This document shows, piece after piece, positions 5,004 to 17,434 of a stretch of DNA of 64,000 nucleotides. Positions within the stretch are counted from its first letter, which is position 1, and every line of letters starts with the position of its first letter. This DNA comes from Sneathiella sp. HT1-7. GTDB taxonomy: Bacteria; Pseudomonadota; Alphaproteobacteria; Sneathiellales; Sneathiellaceae. The notes beneath the pieces were generated by a model. That model was not told the origin of the DNA, searched no databases, and saw only the letters and a list, made by a program, of their open reading frames with translations. The position numbers and the translations under genes are program-made. The stretch is from contig NZ_JAJFZN010000001.1 in the NCBI RefSeq assembly GCF_020731145.1, positions 930,001 through 994,000 of the forward strand. Reading direction: 5' to 3'.

Positions 5004-6362
5004 TCAGGGGCGGAAGATGGCGAGATCGACGGCCCCTTTAACACCGTCGACTTTGCGCGCCTCTCGAATTTCCAATTTTGCCTGAGGTGCATACCCTTGC
5101 GTCTTGGCAAGGTCCAGTGCCTCCCGCGTGGTAACACCAGTGGCCTGTTCATCCTTGGCATGCTTGTCGAGCTTGGCGGCAAGATTGACCGGTTCCCCGA
5201 TCACTGTGTATTCTAACCGGCTGTTATCGCCGACCGCGCCGAAGACAATTGCCCCGACAGCGGAGACGAAACGAACCGTCATGGGGTCTTGTTTGTCCGC
5301 CGTTCGATCCTTCGACCATGCCGCTGCCTCTTTGTTCAGGTCTTCCATCGCGCGCAGGCAATCGGCCGCGTAGTGCTCCGTTGGGACCGCCGCGCCGAAG
5401 GTGGCGAGAATCCCGTCACCGAGAAACTTGTCGATGGTGCCGCCGTGTTTCTGGATCACAGGCACCATGCGGGACTGATACTCCGTCAGCAATGAAATCA
5501 CCTCGTTCGCCGGCCGTTCCATGGATAGTTTTGTAAAGCCCTGTAAATCGCAATGTAGGATTGCCGCCTGTCGGCTTTCGCCGGTCCCGGGCTCGATCCA
5601 GCTTTCTGAATGGGTAATCTGAGCGGCGATTTCCGGGGAGAAAAAGCGGGAGAGGTCCGCTGCCGCGGTCGCCTGCGCCACCGAATGGATCAACAATCGC
5701 CGCGCCCGGACAATGACGAGAGCAAGAATAAGGGTCACCACGACGATGCTGATGACCTTGTCAAACTCCGCGCCGAGCAGGATTTTATGCGACATGGTGA
5801 ATTCCACATAATCGCGGGTGATCTGTGCCATGCCGTCTTCCAGATGCACGGCATACCCCAACAGGATGAGCCAACCGATTGCCGCCGAGGCGCCCGCGAG
5901 TAGGACATAGCTCGCCTCGAACCGGAGGGCACGAAGGGCGATAAAGATAAAGACATAGAGCAAGGTCGGCGCCTTCAGGTAGAAGGACGGCGGCTGTTCA
6001 TACTGGATATGAAAACTCCAAATCAGGAACATCAACAACGCCATATCAGCGATAACAGAAAGACTGATAAACCACCACGGCATCCTGCCGAAATAGGCGA
6101 GCAGTAGGCGAAGTACTGTAAACACACCGTAAATCATAAGCGCATAAGGCACGGGCGCAAACATAACATCAGCGGCGAATGTCTTCGGCGACAGGGCGTA
6201 TAGGGTGGAGAAGGTGATGACGATAAACACCTGTACCCAGGCGATCAGGATTTCCGACTGGGTCTGTTGGCGCGTGATGGCATCTTGCACCCGCGCCGGC
6301 AACTTCCCGTCGATCTCTTCACCCAGTATGGCTTTTTTAATGCTATTCCACATTCCCGTCAT
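5004..6362 (-). CDS. Membrane-bound class III adenylate/guanylate cyclase
   Basis: Predicted to make a cyclic nucleotide at the inner membrane. I chose the ATG at 6362 (452 residues); a longer frame reaches 6455 but would overlap the upstream methyltransferase gene. Six hydrophobic helices occupy about residues 38-225, then a RFFSPEIAAQI linker and the catalytic domain. The two metal-binding aspartates are present (D272 in HCDLQGF, D316 in FLGDGI). The asparagine N393 that binds the ribose is present, but the transition-state arginine four residues on is lysine (K397, bases 5172-5174), so activity may be low. Nucleotide specificity is not determined. Transcribed convergently to the ABC operon. 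Confidence 0.9.
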   Translation of the reverse strand: MTGMWNSIKKAILGEEIDGKLPARVQDAITRQQTQSEILIAWVQVFIVITFSTLYALSPKTFAADVMFAPVPYALMIYGVFTVLRLLLAYFGRMPWWFISLSVIADMALLMFLIWSFHIQYEQPPSFYLKAPTLLYVFIFIALRALRFEASYVLLAGASAAIGWLILLGYAVHLEDGMAQITRDYVEFTMSHKILLGAEFDKVISIVVVTLILALVIVRARRLLIHSVAQATAAADLSRFFSPEIAAQITHSESWIEPGTGESRQAAILHCDLQGFTKLSMERPANEVISLLTEYQSRMVPVIQKHGGTIDKFLGDGILATFGAAVPTEHYAADCLRAMEDLNKEAAAWSKDRTADKQDPMTVRFVSAVGAIVFGAVGDNSRLEYTVIGEPVNLAAKLDKHAKDEQATGVTTREALDLAKTQGYAPQAKLEIREARKVDGVKGAVDLAIFRP

Positions 6363-6405
6363 ATGCGCTCGCTTTCGATAACATGGAACGCACAACCCTT
6401 CATAA

Positions 6406-7251
6406 TTATGTGATCGCCCGCTTTTGCAGCCAGAGACTGGTCTCCACCGCCCCATCGGGGATCGGCAGACTTCCGGCAGATGATTGTGCCAGCGCGTCTT
6501 TCATGCGGCTCGCGACATAGGCGCTTGAAAATATCAGCTCATAACCTCCCCCGAGAAAAAGCGGGGCGGCAAGTTGCTGTTCGTTATAGCCTCGCCAGTC
6601 CCAGCTTTCGGGATAGTCATCGGGCAGGAAGATATCATGGATGTGGATAAATACGCCCGGTGGGAGAGAGGGCAGGATATCCAGAAACAGGCGATCAACA
6701 TCGCTGCCCGGCATGGCAATGTGGCTGCTGTCGATAAACAGGAAATCACCTGCGGCAAGTTTGGTGAAAGGGTCATTTCCTGCCTCATGCAGCGTCTTGT
6801 GGATCACCTGAATGGGCAGGGTTTCGATTGTAGCGCGGGGGGCGGGATCAATCGCGGTGAATTTCGTGGTGAGATCACCATCTTTGATAGCACGCGCCAT
6901 GAAGCGGGTGGAATGGCCCGATCCGACCTCGACAATATGTGCCGGTTTTTCTTTTCGCACCATGGCGTAGGCGATTGCTGCGTCCAGCCGGGGGAACCAG
7001 TCCTGCTCAAACCGTGGCTCAGGCGGCGGTAAAGTGCCGAAGCTTTCGAATGCGCCCCGATAAGTAGCCAGATCATCCAGGTGTTTCGCAAAATTAGCTT
7101 CGCGCGCTGCCATGTATGTTTCAATAGCGGGGTAAGATCCGCGTCCCGTCGCCTTGGGGAGGCTCGCGGCATAGCGATAAGGAATAAAGAACCCCTCCTT
7201 CTTCAGTCCGAGGACGGTATTGAGGCCCATGCGCAGGCGACGCAGATTCAT
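6406..7251 (-). CDS. Class I SAM-dependent methyltransferase (Methyltransf_24-like)
   Basis: Probable methyltransferase of unknown substrate, 281 residues. The SAM-binding motif I is EVGSGHSTR (residues 108-116), with an acidic residue after the next strand (AIDPAP, 133-138), the FIDSSH segment at 172-177 and HIHDIFLPDDYP at 203-214. This pattern is found in the family that includes cephalosporin hydroxylase-like and glycan-modifying methyltransferases. The C-terminal helix-strand unit fits the fold. Its stop lies 43 bases upstream of the chosen cyclase start on the same strand, so the two may share a transcript. Divergent to the crotonase-fold gene. Confidence 0.82.
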   Translation of the reverse strand: MNLRRLRMGLNTVLGLKKEGFFIPYRYAASLPKATGRGSYPAIETYMAAREANFAKHLDDLATYRGAFESFGTLPPPEPRFEQDWFPRLDAAIAYAMVRKEKPAHIVEVGSGHSTRFMARAIKDGDLTTKFTAIDPAPRATIETLPIQVIHKTLHEAGNDPFTKLAAGDFLFIDSSHIAMPGSDVDRLFLDILPSLPPGVFIHIHDIFLPDDYPESWDWRGYNEQQLAAPLFLGGGYELIFSSAYVASRMKDALAQSSAGSLPIPDGAVETSLWLQKRAIT

Positions 7252-13884: not shown

Positions 13885-14234
13885 GTAATGAAGAACTATC
13901 CGGCCTGGACAGACTGTATGCAACTGTGGCGGCGCGCAAAGGAAGTGATCCGACAAGCTCTTATACTGCCAAGCTCTACACGAAGGGCAGCGCTAAGATC
14001 GCCCAGAAGGTGGGGGAAGAGGCCGTTGAGCTTGCCATCGCGGCGGCACTTGAGGATCGTGATGAAATTATTTCTGAGAGCGCGGATCTCCTCTATCATT
14101 TATCCGTTCTTTGGGCGAATGCGGATGTTGACCCGGCCGATATCTATGCCAAATTAGAGGCGCGTGAAGGCCAGTCCGGCCTGGCAGAGAAGGCGGCGCG
14201 AAAAACCGACGGAGAGAAGAAAAATGGCGTATGA
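13881..14234 (+). CDS. hisE: Phosphoribosyl-ATP pyrophosphatase HisE
   Basis: MazG-fold pyrophosphohydrolase for step two of histidine synthesis, 117 residues. The metal-binding helix motif [13 protein letters not shown] and the E-S-A-D-L-L-Y-H-L segment are the family core. The tail after residue 100 is lysine- and glutamate-rich and variable. ATGA overlap with hisF. HisI is not fused here and must be elsewhere. Confidence 0.96.
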
Positions 14235-14601
14235 TAACGACAATATATTTGCCAAAATACTGAGAGGCGAACTTCCCAATACCACTGTTTATGAGGATGA
14301 AAGCATTCTCGCGTTCAACGATATCGCGCCCAGAACGCCAATCCATGTTCTGGTGATCCCGAAGCGCCCTTATATCGATATGGATGATTTCGTGATCAAT
14401 GGCTCACCGGAGGAGGTCAGCAATTTCTTTGCCAAGGTTGTCGAGATTACGCATCAGCTTGGCCTGCGTGAGGATGGCTATCGATTGGTCGCCAATACGG
14501 GCAAGAATTCCGGCCAGCTGGTACCGCATTTCCATATTCATATCATGTCTGGCAAGCCACTGGGTGAGGCTGGCATGACTGAAGGAATGTCGGGCGACTG
14601 A
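14224..14601 (+). CDS. HIT family purine nucleotide phosphoramidase-like protein
   Basis: HinT-like hydrolase of nucleoside phosphoramidates, 125 residues. Start ATG 14224 chosen because GGAGA lies just before it and the protein then begins as HinT proteins do ([17 protein letters not shown]). The histidine triad is PHFHIHI near residue 103-109 with the invariant distal asparagine region NTGKNSGQ just before it. The gene overlaps hisE by 11 bases; attachment of a HIT gene to the his operon is common in Alphaproteobacteria and could remove phosphoramidate side products. Confidence 0.93.
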   Translation: MAYDNDNIFAKILRGELPNTTVYEDESILAFNDIAPRTPIHVLVIPKRPYIDMDDFVINGSPEEVSNFFAKVVEITHQLGLREDGYRLVANTGKNSGQLVPHFHIHIMSGKPLGEAGMTEGMSGD

Positions 14602-16320
14602 TCAGACCGTGAAGTAGGGAAGGCGCTGGGCGTCTTCAACAATATAGATGCCGAGTGGTTCAACCCGCCCGCGGATTTCAGTGCTTTCATGGGCTAGCTC
14701 CGAGAAATCCTCCGCCACGAGATTTGCCACCTTGTCCGAAAAAATAAGCTGGCTGGAATATTCCTTTGTCAATGATTCGAGACGGCTTGCCGTATTGACC
14801 GGATCGCCGATGGCGGTGATAGAGGTAGCAATGCCATACCCCATCTGACCGACGATTACTTGCCCGACATGGATTCCGATGCCGATTCTAAGCGGTACCG
14901 GTAGATCTGATTTGAGATTCTCGTTCATTATTTCAAGCTCTTTAGACATTGACCGGGCGGCGTTCAAGGCCATGCGGCTGGCGGTTTTGCTATTTTCGTT
15001 CAAGCCAAACAGCGCCATGACGCCATCCCCAATGAATTTATCGAGATGACCGCCATTTGCCTCGATCGCCTCACCCATATGCCGAAAATACTGGTTGATC
15101 ACGAACACCACGTCATAGGGTAGTTTTTGCTCGGAAAATTTGGTGAAGGCACGTAAATCTGCGAACAGGATTGCGATTTCCTTCTCCTGCCCTTGCAGAT
15201 AGGCAGGTTGATTAAAGGCCTGACGCACGGTGGCAGTCGCCGGTAGAAGCGGAATGACCGACACGTCTCCAGAGGGAATACTCTGACAGGCGAGGCGAGT
15301 CCCCAGCGGGGCGCCGACGCGACGTAGAACGGCTGTTTCCTTGTCACTCGGCGGGTTCAATTTATCCCATCCCTTCAAAATTCGGACGCGGCAGGTGGAG
15401 CAGCGGCCCCGACCGCCGCAAACCGAGGCATGGGGAATACTGCCAAGTTGGCTTGCCTCTAGAATAGACAGGCCTGGCGTTGCGAGAACTGTCTTCTCAT
15501 CCGGATAGCTAATGGCGTTTACCTTGCGTCGACGGTAGCGGATTGTCCAGTAGATCCGGCTTAGGATGAGCAGGCCAAGCGCCGCGAACATAACCTGAAA
15601 ACCGATATCCCGGGTCGAATAAGCCCAGCCGATAAGGTCTGGCGGTAAATCGAGGCGCGCGAAAAAGGTTTCCCGCCAGACGGCATCAGCATTCAGTCTT
15701 TCCAATTCATTCGCGCCATTAATAAACCCGCTCAAAGAGACAATCGGCAAGATCAGAGCAAGGCTATAGAGGAGGGGAAATGTCTTGTCGTACCATGGCT
15801 TGAGCCGAAGCCAGAAATGAATGCCCATACAGCCATGCAGCCAGGCAATCACGAGCCCAAGACTTTGCAGCAGCGCCTGAATCGGAGTCGCGACCCACAA
15901 GCTGAACAGCACATAGCTATAGCTATCGTCGACGCCGTAAACCTCATGGGCGACGCGGGTGCCGATGATATGCAGAAGAACAAGTGGCGGAATTAAAAGT
16001 CCGAGGATGATTTGTAAGACATCCTTGCCCGCAAGGCGGCGGTAGGAGCGATGACGAAGTAGCTTGTAAAACACCAGTGCGATATGAAGGATTATGGCGC
16101 CCAACAACAGGATTGTACCGGGTATGCTCCGCCAGAAGCTAAGAAAAATGTCCCGGCCCATCTCCATCGCGTTCAGGGAAATGAGGCCCAGCGCGTGATT
16201 AATAAGATGACCTGCCAGAAAGATCATTAGCACAAGGCCGCTTACCAGCCTGAGCCGGTCCGGCCGAAGGGCCATCCTTAACGTTGCTGTTTGTCGTTTC
16301 AGGCCCTTTGGCAATGTCAT
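14602..16320 (-). CDS. Membrane cyclase with di-haem-type anchor and [2Fe-2S] ferredoxin domain
   Basis: Predicted redox-responsive nucleotide cyclase of 572 residues. Residues about 25-260 contain six hydrophobic helices with histidines inside or next to them (H38, H42, H79, H117, H125, H162, H168), a pattern like the haem b-binding anchor of succinate:quinone reductase. Residues 270-360 are a plant-type ferredoxin domain with C301, C307, C310 and C345. Residues 378-565 are a class III cyclase with metal aspartates D388 and D432 and an intact N-T-A-S-R catalytic segment. From memory, Sinorhizobium meliloti CyaC is described as a cyclase with a quinone-responsive di-haem anchor and may be a homologue. 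Convergent with the his operon with no gap. Confidence 0.88.
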   Translation of the reverse strand: MTLPKGLKRQTATLRMALRPDRLRLVSGLVLMIFLAGHLINHALGLISLNAMEMGRDIFLSFWRSIPGTILLLGAIILHIALVFYKLLRHRSYRRLAGKDVLQIILGLLIPPLVLLHIIGTRVAHEVYGVDDSYSYVLFSLWVATPIQALLQSLGLVIAWLHGCMGIHFWLRLKPWYDKTFPLLYSLALILPIVSLSGFINGANELERLNADAVWRETFFARLDLPPDLIGWAYSTRDIGFQVMFAALGLLILSRIYWTIRYRRRKVNAISYPDEKTVLATPGLSILEASQLGSIPHASVCGGRGRCSTCRVRILKGWDKLNPPSDKETAVLRRVGAPLGTRLACQSIPSGDVSVIPLLPATATVRQAFNQPAYLQGQEKEIAILFADLRAFTKFSEQKLPYDVVFVINQYFRHMGEAIEANGGHLDKFIGDGVMALFGLNENSKTASRMALNAARSMSKELEIMNENLKSDLPVPLRIGIGIHVGQVIVGQMGYGIATSITAIGDPVNTASRLESLTKEYSSQLIFSDKVANLVAEDFSELAHESTEIRGRVEPLGIYIVEDAQRLPYFTV

Positions 16321-16337: not shown

Positions 16338-17336
16338 TTATGCGGCCGCGAGTTTTTTCTGAAGCAATTCCTTCAAATCCGCTGTCGGACGGGCGCCGTA
16401 ATGGCTAATGATCTCCGCTGCCGCCATTGAGCCGATCCGCCCGCTTGTGGCGAGATCATGTCCATTGGTGTAGCCGTAAAGAAAACCGGCGGCGAACAGA
16501 TCACCTGCGCCCGTGGTATCAACAACTTCAATGTCCTTGTCGGCGGGAATTGTATGAACCTCCGACCCTTTGACGATGATTGAGCCTTTTTCACTCCGTG
16601 TCAGACAGGCGATTTCCACCTGTTCGCGCACGGCGCCCAGCGCGGCATCGAAATCATCCGTCTCATAAAGGGATTTTATTTCATCTTCATTTGCAAAGAG
16701 AATATCGACGCCGCCTTCGATAAATTCCTGAAACTCCGCGCGGTAGCGATCAACGCAGAAGCTGTCGGACAGAGTGAGGGAGACTTGCTGGCCCGCCGCG
16801 TGAGCAATTTCAGCTGCTTTACGAAAAGCCTGTTTGCCATTTTCCGGATCCCACAGATACCCTTCCATATAGGTCACTTTCGAGGCGGCGATAATCTCCG
16901 GGTCGATATCGTTCGGCCCAAGCTCGATACAGGCGCCGAGATAAGTGTTCATCGTTCGGTGCGCATCCGGCGTTACTAGGATGAGGCTGCGTGCGGTTGC
17001 TGCGCCATTTGACGATTGTTCGGTTTCGAACGTGACGCCGGCGGCGTGGATATCATGGGTGAAAATATCACCGAGCTGATCATTACGGACCTTCCCGACA
17101 TAGGCACATGCACCGCCAAGTGAGGCAATGCCCGCTGCTGTATTTCCTGCCGATCCACCGGACATCTCGATTGCCGATTTCATCTTCGCATAGAGTTCCT
17201 CTGCGCGGACCATATCGATAAGGTTCATCGAATTTTTTACAAGATTTTCCGCCTCCAGAAAGGCGTCATCGGTTTTACTGATAACATCGACAATGGCATT
17301 GCCAATACAGGTTGTGTCAAACATCCGCTTCGTCAT
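16338..17336 (-). CDS. PfkB family carbohydrate/nucleoside kinase (adenosine kinase-like)
   Basis: Cytoplasmic kinase that phosphorylates a sugar or nucleoside hydroxyl, 332 residues from ATG 17336. Two PfkB signatures are present: GGSAGNTAAGIASLGG (about 53-68) and DTTGAGDLFAAGFLYGY with the catalytic aspartate in GAGD. The N-terminus DTTCIGNAIVDVISKTDD is typical of proteins annotated as adenosine kinase in Alphaproteobacteria. The true substrate is not shown by sequence. Divergent to the amidase gene, about 100 bases away. Confidence 0.88.
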   Translation of the reverse strand: MTKRMFDTTCIGNAIVDVISKTDDAFLEAENLVKNSMNLIDMVRAEELYAKMKSAIEMSGGSAGNTAAGIASLGGACAYVGKVRNDQLGDIFTHDIHAAGVTFETEQSSNGAATARSLILVTPDAHRTMNTYLGACIELGPNDIDPEIIAASKVTYMEGYLWDPENGKQAFRKAAEIAHAAGQQVSLTLSDSFCVDRYRAEFQEFIEGGVDILFANEDEIKSLYETDDFDAALGAVREQVEIACLTRSEKGSIIVKGSEVHTIPADKDIEVVDTTGAGDLFAAGFLYGYTNGHDLATSGRIGSMAAAEIISHYGARPTADLKELLQKKLAAA

Positions 17337-17434
17337 AATATTCCCGCTCGTTACTCTGGCATCGGGGGAGTATAGTCGCTCGAACCAAAGGGGCAAGAAC
17401 GCTTTGCGTCGCATTGCGATTTAGGAGGAAACAG

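Follow-up and report, generated by a model that had tools for sequence, protein, structure and literature searches.

A membrane-anchored cyclase in Sneathiella

The locus described here raises the question of whether a single protein chain can convert the redox state of quinone into cyclic AMP (cAMP). It lies in a stretch of 64,000 nucleotides (hereafter, the window) on contig NZ_JAJFZN010000001.1 of Sneathiella sp. HT1-7 and encodes a membrane anchor, a [2Fe-2S] ferredoxin domain (Fer2) and a class III cyclase domain in one open reading frame (ORF) (Table 1). We put a probability of roughly 0.88 on the view that the product is a CyaC-type class III adenylate cyclase that converts quinone redox state into cAMP through a di-haem anchor, probably with the help of the [2Fe-2S] cluster. 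Our computations establish the evidence that carries this conclusion, namely the domain architecture, the conserved ligand residues, the match between the anchor and the fold of quinol:fumarate reductase (QFR) anchors, and a full set of catalytic residues. The sequence-only reading that preceded this analysis had proposed a di-haem, quinone-responsive cyclase with an added iron-sulphur domain. The first part of that proposal agrees with an anchor fold like that of QFR and succinate dehydrogenase (SDH), with four invariant histidines and with published work on CyaC, but the novelty of the ferredoxin domain did not stand.

The residues named in that reading are all in place, comprising seven histidines (H38, H42, H79, H117, H125, H162 and H168), four cysteines (C301, C307, C310 and C345), the aspartates D388 and D432, and the motif N509-T-A-S-R513. 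We judged their conservation in homologues from 108 loci. Six loci were dropped before counting: L119, L120 and L121 have partial architectures, L123 and L124 are split, and L028 has a broken frame. The 102 full-length homologues and the window protein gave 103 rows, which were reduced to 91 by removal at ≥90% identity. The same gene occurs twice among the loci in three cases (L012/L050, L025/L054 and L036/L088), and matches from a survey of 385 genomes were fetched in part (29 loci besides the window, then 40, then 6). Single misses in a first count of 30 rows arose because L028 had been included. The genes in L028, L123 and L124 are CyaC-type genes broken into two frames, which may reflect either breakage or assembly error. 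Several of the closest relatives sit in Sneathiella genomes and are 74-90% identical. None of the 103 aligned full-length sequences shows a change at any of the eight residues predicted to bind a cofactor (four His, four Cys). A related-locus search of a viral contig collection with the window gene gave no relative.

The anchor carries four invariant histidines in a predicted QFR-like fold

AlphaFold modelled the whole chain with a mean predicted local distance difference test (pLDDT) score of 88.4 and a predicted template-modelling (pTM) score of 0.59. Because the fold search with the whole protein was dominated by matches to the cyclase domain, the anchor was folded by itself. The resulting model of residues 1-262 (pLDDT 96.2, pTM 0.90) has six membrane helices, in keeping with the six hydrophobic helices claimed from the sequence; the predicted helices span residues 20-46, 66-89, 98-128, 146-171, 177-210 and 229-261. 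The best PDB matches of this model, found with VIA-align, were the haem anchors of QFR and SDH, which bears out the proposed likeness to the di-haem anchor of succinate:quinone reductase (SQR). Only VIA-align set these anchors apart, and Foldseek with the same model returned nothing at E 0.001. Nothing was found at E 0.001 in a fold search against viral models or at E 10 in a phmmer search of the PDB with the anchor of a second homologue, and a search of five genomes or records yielded no di-haem SdhC sequence.

The anchors share a mean identity of only 38% (500 sampled pairs), and residue invariance is therefore informative. Seven residues among the first 262 positions are invariant in 91/91 rows (G28, H38, H79, H117, W160, H162 and G166). 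Four of these are histidines in a stretch that holds eight (hypergeometric p ~1e-5, as a simple count), and the aligned sequences indicate a histidine pattern that exceeds chance. H38, H79, H117 and H162 follow one another at spacings of 41, 37-38 and 42-46 residues, and on this alignment they are likely to make up the haem-ligand set. We rejected the possibility that all seven named histidines bind haem, as only these four are invariant in the 91-row set; H42 is present in 86 rows, H168 in 69 (13 others have Tyr) and H125 in 46. By helix depth, the four fall two to each half of the membrane, with H38/H117 as the predicted pair in the periplasmic half and H79/H162 as the predicted pair in the cytoplasmic half.

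The catalytic residues are intact and the ferredoxin cysteines invariant

The sequence-only reading had called the cyclase core intact, and we find D388, D432, K428, T502, N509 and R513 all present and mostly conserved in the family. D432 occurs in 91/91 rows, D388 and R513 in 90 each, N509 and T502 in 85 each, and K428 in 73. We take D388 and D432 to be the metal-binding aspartates, K428 and T502 the Lys/Thr substrate pair, and N509 and R513 the Asn/Arg of class III catalysis. A Lys/Thr substrate pair is the rule in class IIIb. These residues argue against a primarily electron-transferring enzyme, a quinol:acceptor reductase with a degenerate cyclase domain. A homologue at locus L119 that pairs the anchor with Fer2 in the absence of a cyclase domain and keeps the four His and four Cys would fit such an activity, but for the window protein we consider it very improbable.

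Fer2 lies between the membrane anchor and the catalytic domain, directly before the latter. Its predicted cluster ligands, C301, C307, C310 and C345, are each present in 91/91 rows, and the C-x5-C-x2-C spacing is fixed.

The protein belongs to a described cyclase type

The CyaC to which the sequence-only reading pointed does exist, in Sinorhizobium meliloti (SMc01818), and is reported to be redox-controlled. Passages of PMC10463352 describe two b haems, an activity that is affected by quinone, activation after oxidation and a dimer, and haems and redox control are likewise stated in parts of PMC9552081 and PMC13259868. CyaC and the window protein have in common a six-helix di-haem-b anchor, a [2Fe-2S] domain and a class III adenylate cyclase in one chain, with haems and cluster predicted in the case of the window protein. 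In PMC10463352, the legend of Figure 6 indicates a [2Fe-2S] cluster in CyaC beside its two haems. In addition, PMC4821796 (2016) groups 30 class IIIb cyclases from alpha- and betaproteobacteria into a cluster with a ferredoxin between the membrane and catalytic domains. We therefore rejected Fer2 as an innovation of the window protein, and nothing has been "added".

PMC4821796 also ascribes to this cluster 1 four spaced intramembrane histidines, a likeness to the cytochrome b of fumarate reductase/succinate dehydrogenase and two predicted haems. By description, the only level at which we compared them, its members (e.g. Q132R4 of R. palustris) have the same domain order, histidine set and anchor kinship as the window protein, which has the six-helix anchor, the four spaced histidines, the SDH/fumarate reductase-like anchor, the ferredoxin placement and the catalytic residues of the cluster. 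PMC4821796 was the only paper that turned up on class III adenylate cyclases with a ferredoxin domain. The window protein thus preserves well the features of a cyclase type that has already been described, a sound identification rather than a new one.

A homologue from Sinorhizobium sp. C101 shares 41% identity with the window protein overall (anchor 37%, Fer2 53%, cyclase 45%). It is encoded on a 3.5-Mb replicon filed as a plasmid, where its gene and a TetR gene run tail to tail. This homologue is likely to be the CyaC orthologue, though this is not proven because, according to a passage of PMC10463352, CycR precedes cyaC in S. meliloti, so the orientation may differ. In contrast to the CyaC-CycR-Clr complex of S. 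meliloti, no TetR gene stands beside the window cyclase, which adjoins HIT and PfkB genes. The best match to the TetR neighbour of the C101 homologue in the genome of the window is 28% identical and lies on another contig. As to the CRP-like cAMP receptor Clr, this genome has 11 HTH_Crp_2 matches, five of them over the cut-off, a count made at the level of the domain family.

The predicted anchor has the same fold and haem-ligand layout as FrdC of W. succinogenes and subunit C of D. gigas QFR. It differs from them in being fused to a ferredoxin and a cyclase, and its six membrane helices compare with five in the D. gigas anchor. In respiratory complex II the cytochrome is a subunit of its own that accompanies a flavoprotein and an iron-sulphur subunit; here, the anchor is part of the cyclase chain and the adjacent genes are PRA-PH, HIT, PfkB and Amidase. 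A further difference concerns the residue two positions before the last ligand, which is the invariant W160 in this family and Glu in QFR (Glu-C180 in FrdC, Glu-C164 in D. gigas). Both glutamates have been implicated in proton transfer. This difference is suggestive only, because the SQR of B. licheniformis is reported, in part of PMC10308238, not to use this Glu pathway either.

Separate domain sets and the role of the [2Fe-2S] cluster

Some homologues contain only part of the CyaC-type architecture. The anchor-Fer2 protein of L119 (920-2077, plus strand; the same as L161 6920-8077) has 386 aa. L120 (996-2006, plus strand) encodes Fer2 and a cyclase in about 333 aa, with the catalytic residues kept and no membrane anchor. 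L121 (1208-2719, plus strand; the same gene as in L129 and at 8211-9719 of L162) encodes a single chain of some 503 aa in which two CDGSH domains and Fer2 accompany a class III cyclase and a Rieske domain forms the C-terminus; four [2Fe-2S] sites are predicted in it. Both metal Asp residues, the Asn and the Arg are kept in this cyclase, and the K428 position is Asn. Its counterpart at 1501-3009 of L157 is 87% identical. In both genomes the gene comes immediately after guaB, and in L162 it precedes guaA. This gene was matched over its length in 2/10 genomes of the taxonomic family and in 1/385 genomes of the class sample. No such fusion is evident in the titles and abstract openings of ten of the 17 papers that mention both CDGSH and adenylate cyclase.

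By analogy with CyaC, we infer haem and cluster binding, a quinone response and its direction, and a dimeric state for the window protein. Two b haems, one liganded by H38/H117 and the other by H79/H162, would exchange electrons with ubiquinone/ubiquinol, and the haem redox state would probably be relayed through the cytoplasmic [2Fe-2S] domain to the catalytic domain. The redox state would thereby set the rate at which a dimeric catalytic domain converts ATP to cAMP, and oxidised quinone would raise activity, as in S. meliloti CyaC. We favour the cluster as the putative relay because conservation is equally strict in Fer2 and at the haem site and because ligands are kept in Fer2-cyclase and anchor-Fer2 pairs.

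The same observations bear on two other roles for Fer2. The haems could be the sole sensor, with the ferredoxin domain a structural spacer that passes on anchor movement and no electrons. The background given in PMC10463352 links redox sensitivity to the haems, and part of PMC4821796 places a HAMP domain at the same position in another class III cyclase cluster. However, the cluster cysteines are fixed as firmly as the haem ligands, and the pairs in L120 and L121 suggest that Fer2 can serve a cyclase without haems, so we regard a mere spacer as unlikely. Those anchorless proteins, whose signal would have to come from the cytoplasm, lend some plausibility to a second, independent sensor of oxygen, nitric oxide, iron or a soluble reductase that is integrated with the quinone signal. 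This is less probable still, as there is no reductase or ferredoxin gene among the Pfam-identified neighbours of the cyclase and the fused domain order favours one path.

A bolder extension of the relay model is that anchor and ferredoxin form a portable electron wire, leading from quinone by way of the distal and then the proximal haem to the [2Fe-2S] cluster and freed from proton coupling, in which the cluster rather than the haems would be the switch that touches the cyclase. Freedom from proton coupling is suggested by the invariant Trp at the position of QFR Glu-C180, and portability by the occurrence of the parts separately in L119, L120 and L121/L157. We offer this extension tentatively and think it rather doubtful.

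Gene neighbourhood

The cyclase gene is flanked by PfkB and HIT genes (Table 1), PfkB being a conserved neighbour with at most a putative role in the system and HIT one that we do not count as part of it. Two His_biosynth genes and the PRA-PH gene lie past HIT, and the Amidase gene is on the other side of the cyclase. Further neighbours identified by Pfam are EI24, an HhH-GPD DNA repair protein, DUF2244, IGPD and a GNAT acetyltransferase. The window contains a second class III cyclase (5004-6455, minus strand), a protein of 483 aa with a hydrophobic N-terminal part and no Fer2 match, and class III cyclases are matched 15 times in the genome.

PfkB was near the cyclase in 35 of the 62 loci examined (33/60 without two repeated loci), mostly directly upstream, and the linkage extends beyond Sneathiella. 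It was found in each of the 18 closest loci (L009-L025 and L028), in none of 15 others, and in 17/29 of L050-L078, where flanks of ≤1.5 kb per side would let a more distant PfkB escape the count. That this linkage serves nucleotide recycling is a guess.

Table 1. Features of the cyclase locus, in window coordinates
Feature	Position	Strand	Description
Cyclase ORF, CyaC-type	14602..16320	minus	572 aa; ATG start; no internal stop; Pfam Fer2 and Guanylate_cyc
Six-helix membrane anchor, residues 20-261	15538..16263	minus	Predicted di-haem-b site (anchor model, QFR/SDH-like fold, four invariant His)
[2Fe-2S] ferredoxin domain, residues 275-349	15274..15498	minus	Pfam PF00111 (Fer2), E 4.9e-8, over cut-off
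Class III cyclase catalytic domain, residues 379-554	14659..15186	minus	Pfam Guanylate_cyc, E 2.1e-19, over cut-off
PfkB-family kinase gene	16338..17414	minus	17 bp upstream of cyclase, same strand; Pfam PfkB, E 2.2e-44
HIT-family gene	14164..14601	plus	Tail to tail with cyclase; Pfam HIT, E 1.5e-23

Distribution and significance

At E 1e-50, 111/385 sampled alphaproteobacterial genomes have a match, a count that includes partial matches and the genome of the window, and these fall in 75 of 276 genera. Full-length or near full-length homologues also occur in plasmid records of Rhizobium, Phyllobacterium, Azospirillum and Cupriavidus, and the homologue search returned two contigs labelled Rokuibacteriota.

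In the literature found, S. meliloti CyaC is the only studied protein behind a direct coupling of the respiratory quinone pool to cAMP. The invariant Trp and the separate parts, anchor-Fer2 in one protein and Fer2-cyclase in another, offer simple handles on whether cluster or haems control the cyclase. Because homologues are so widely distributed in the sampled genomes and the eight predicted ligands are unchanged throughout the aligned set, quinone-to-cAMP signalling may be common among Alphaproteobacteria and not peculiar to rhizobia.
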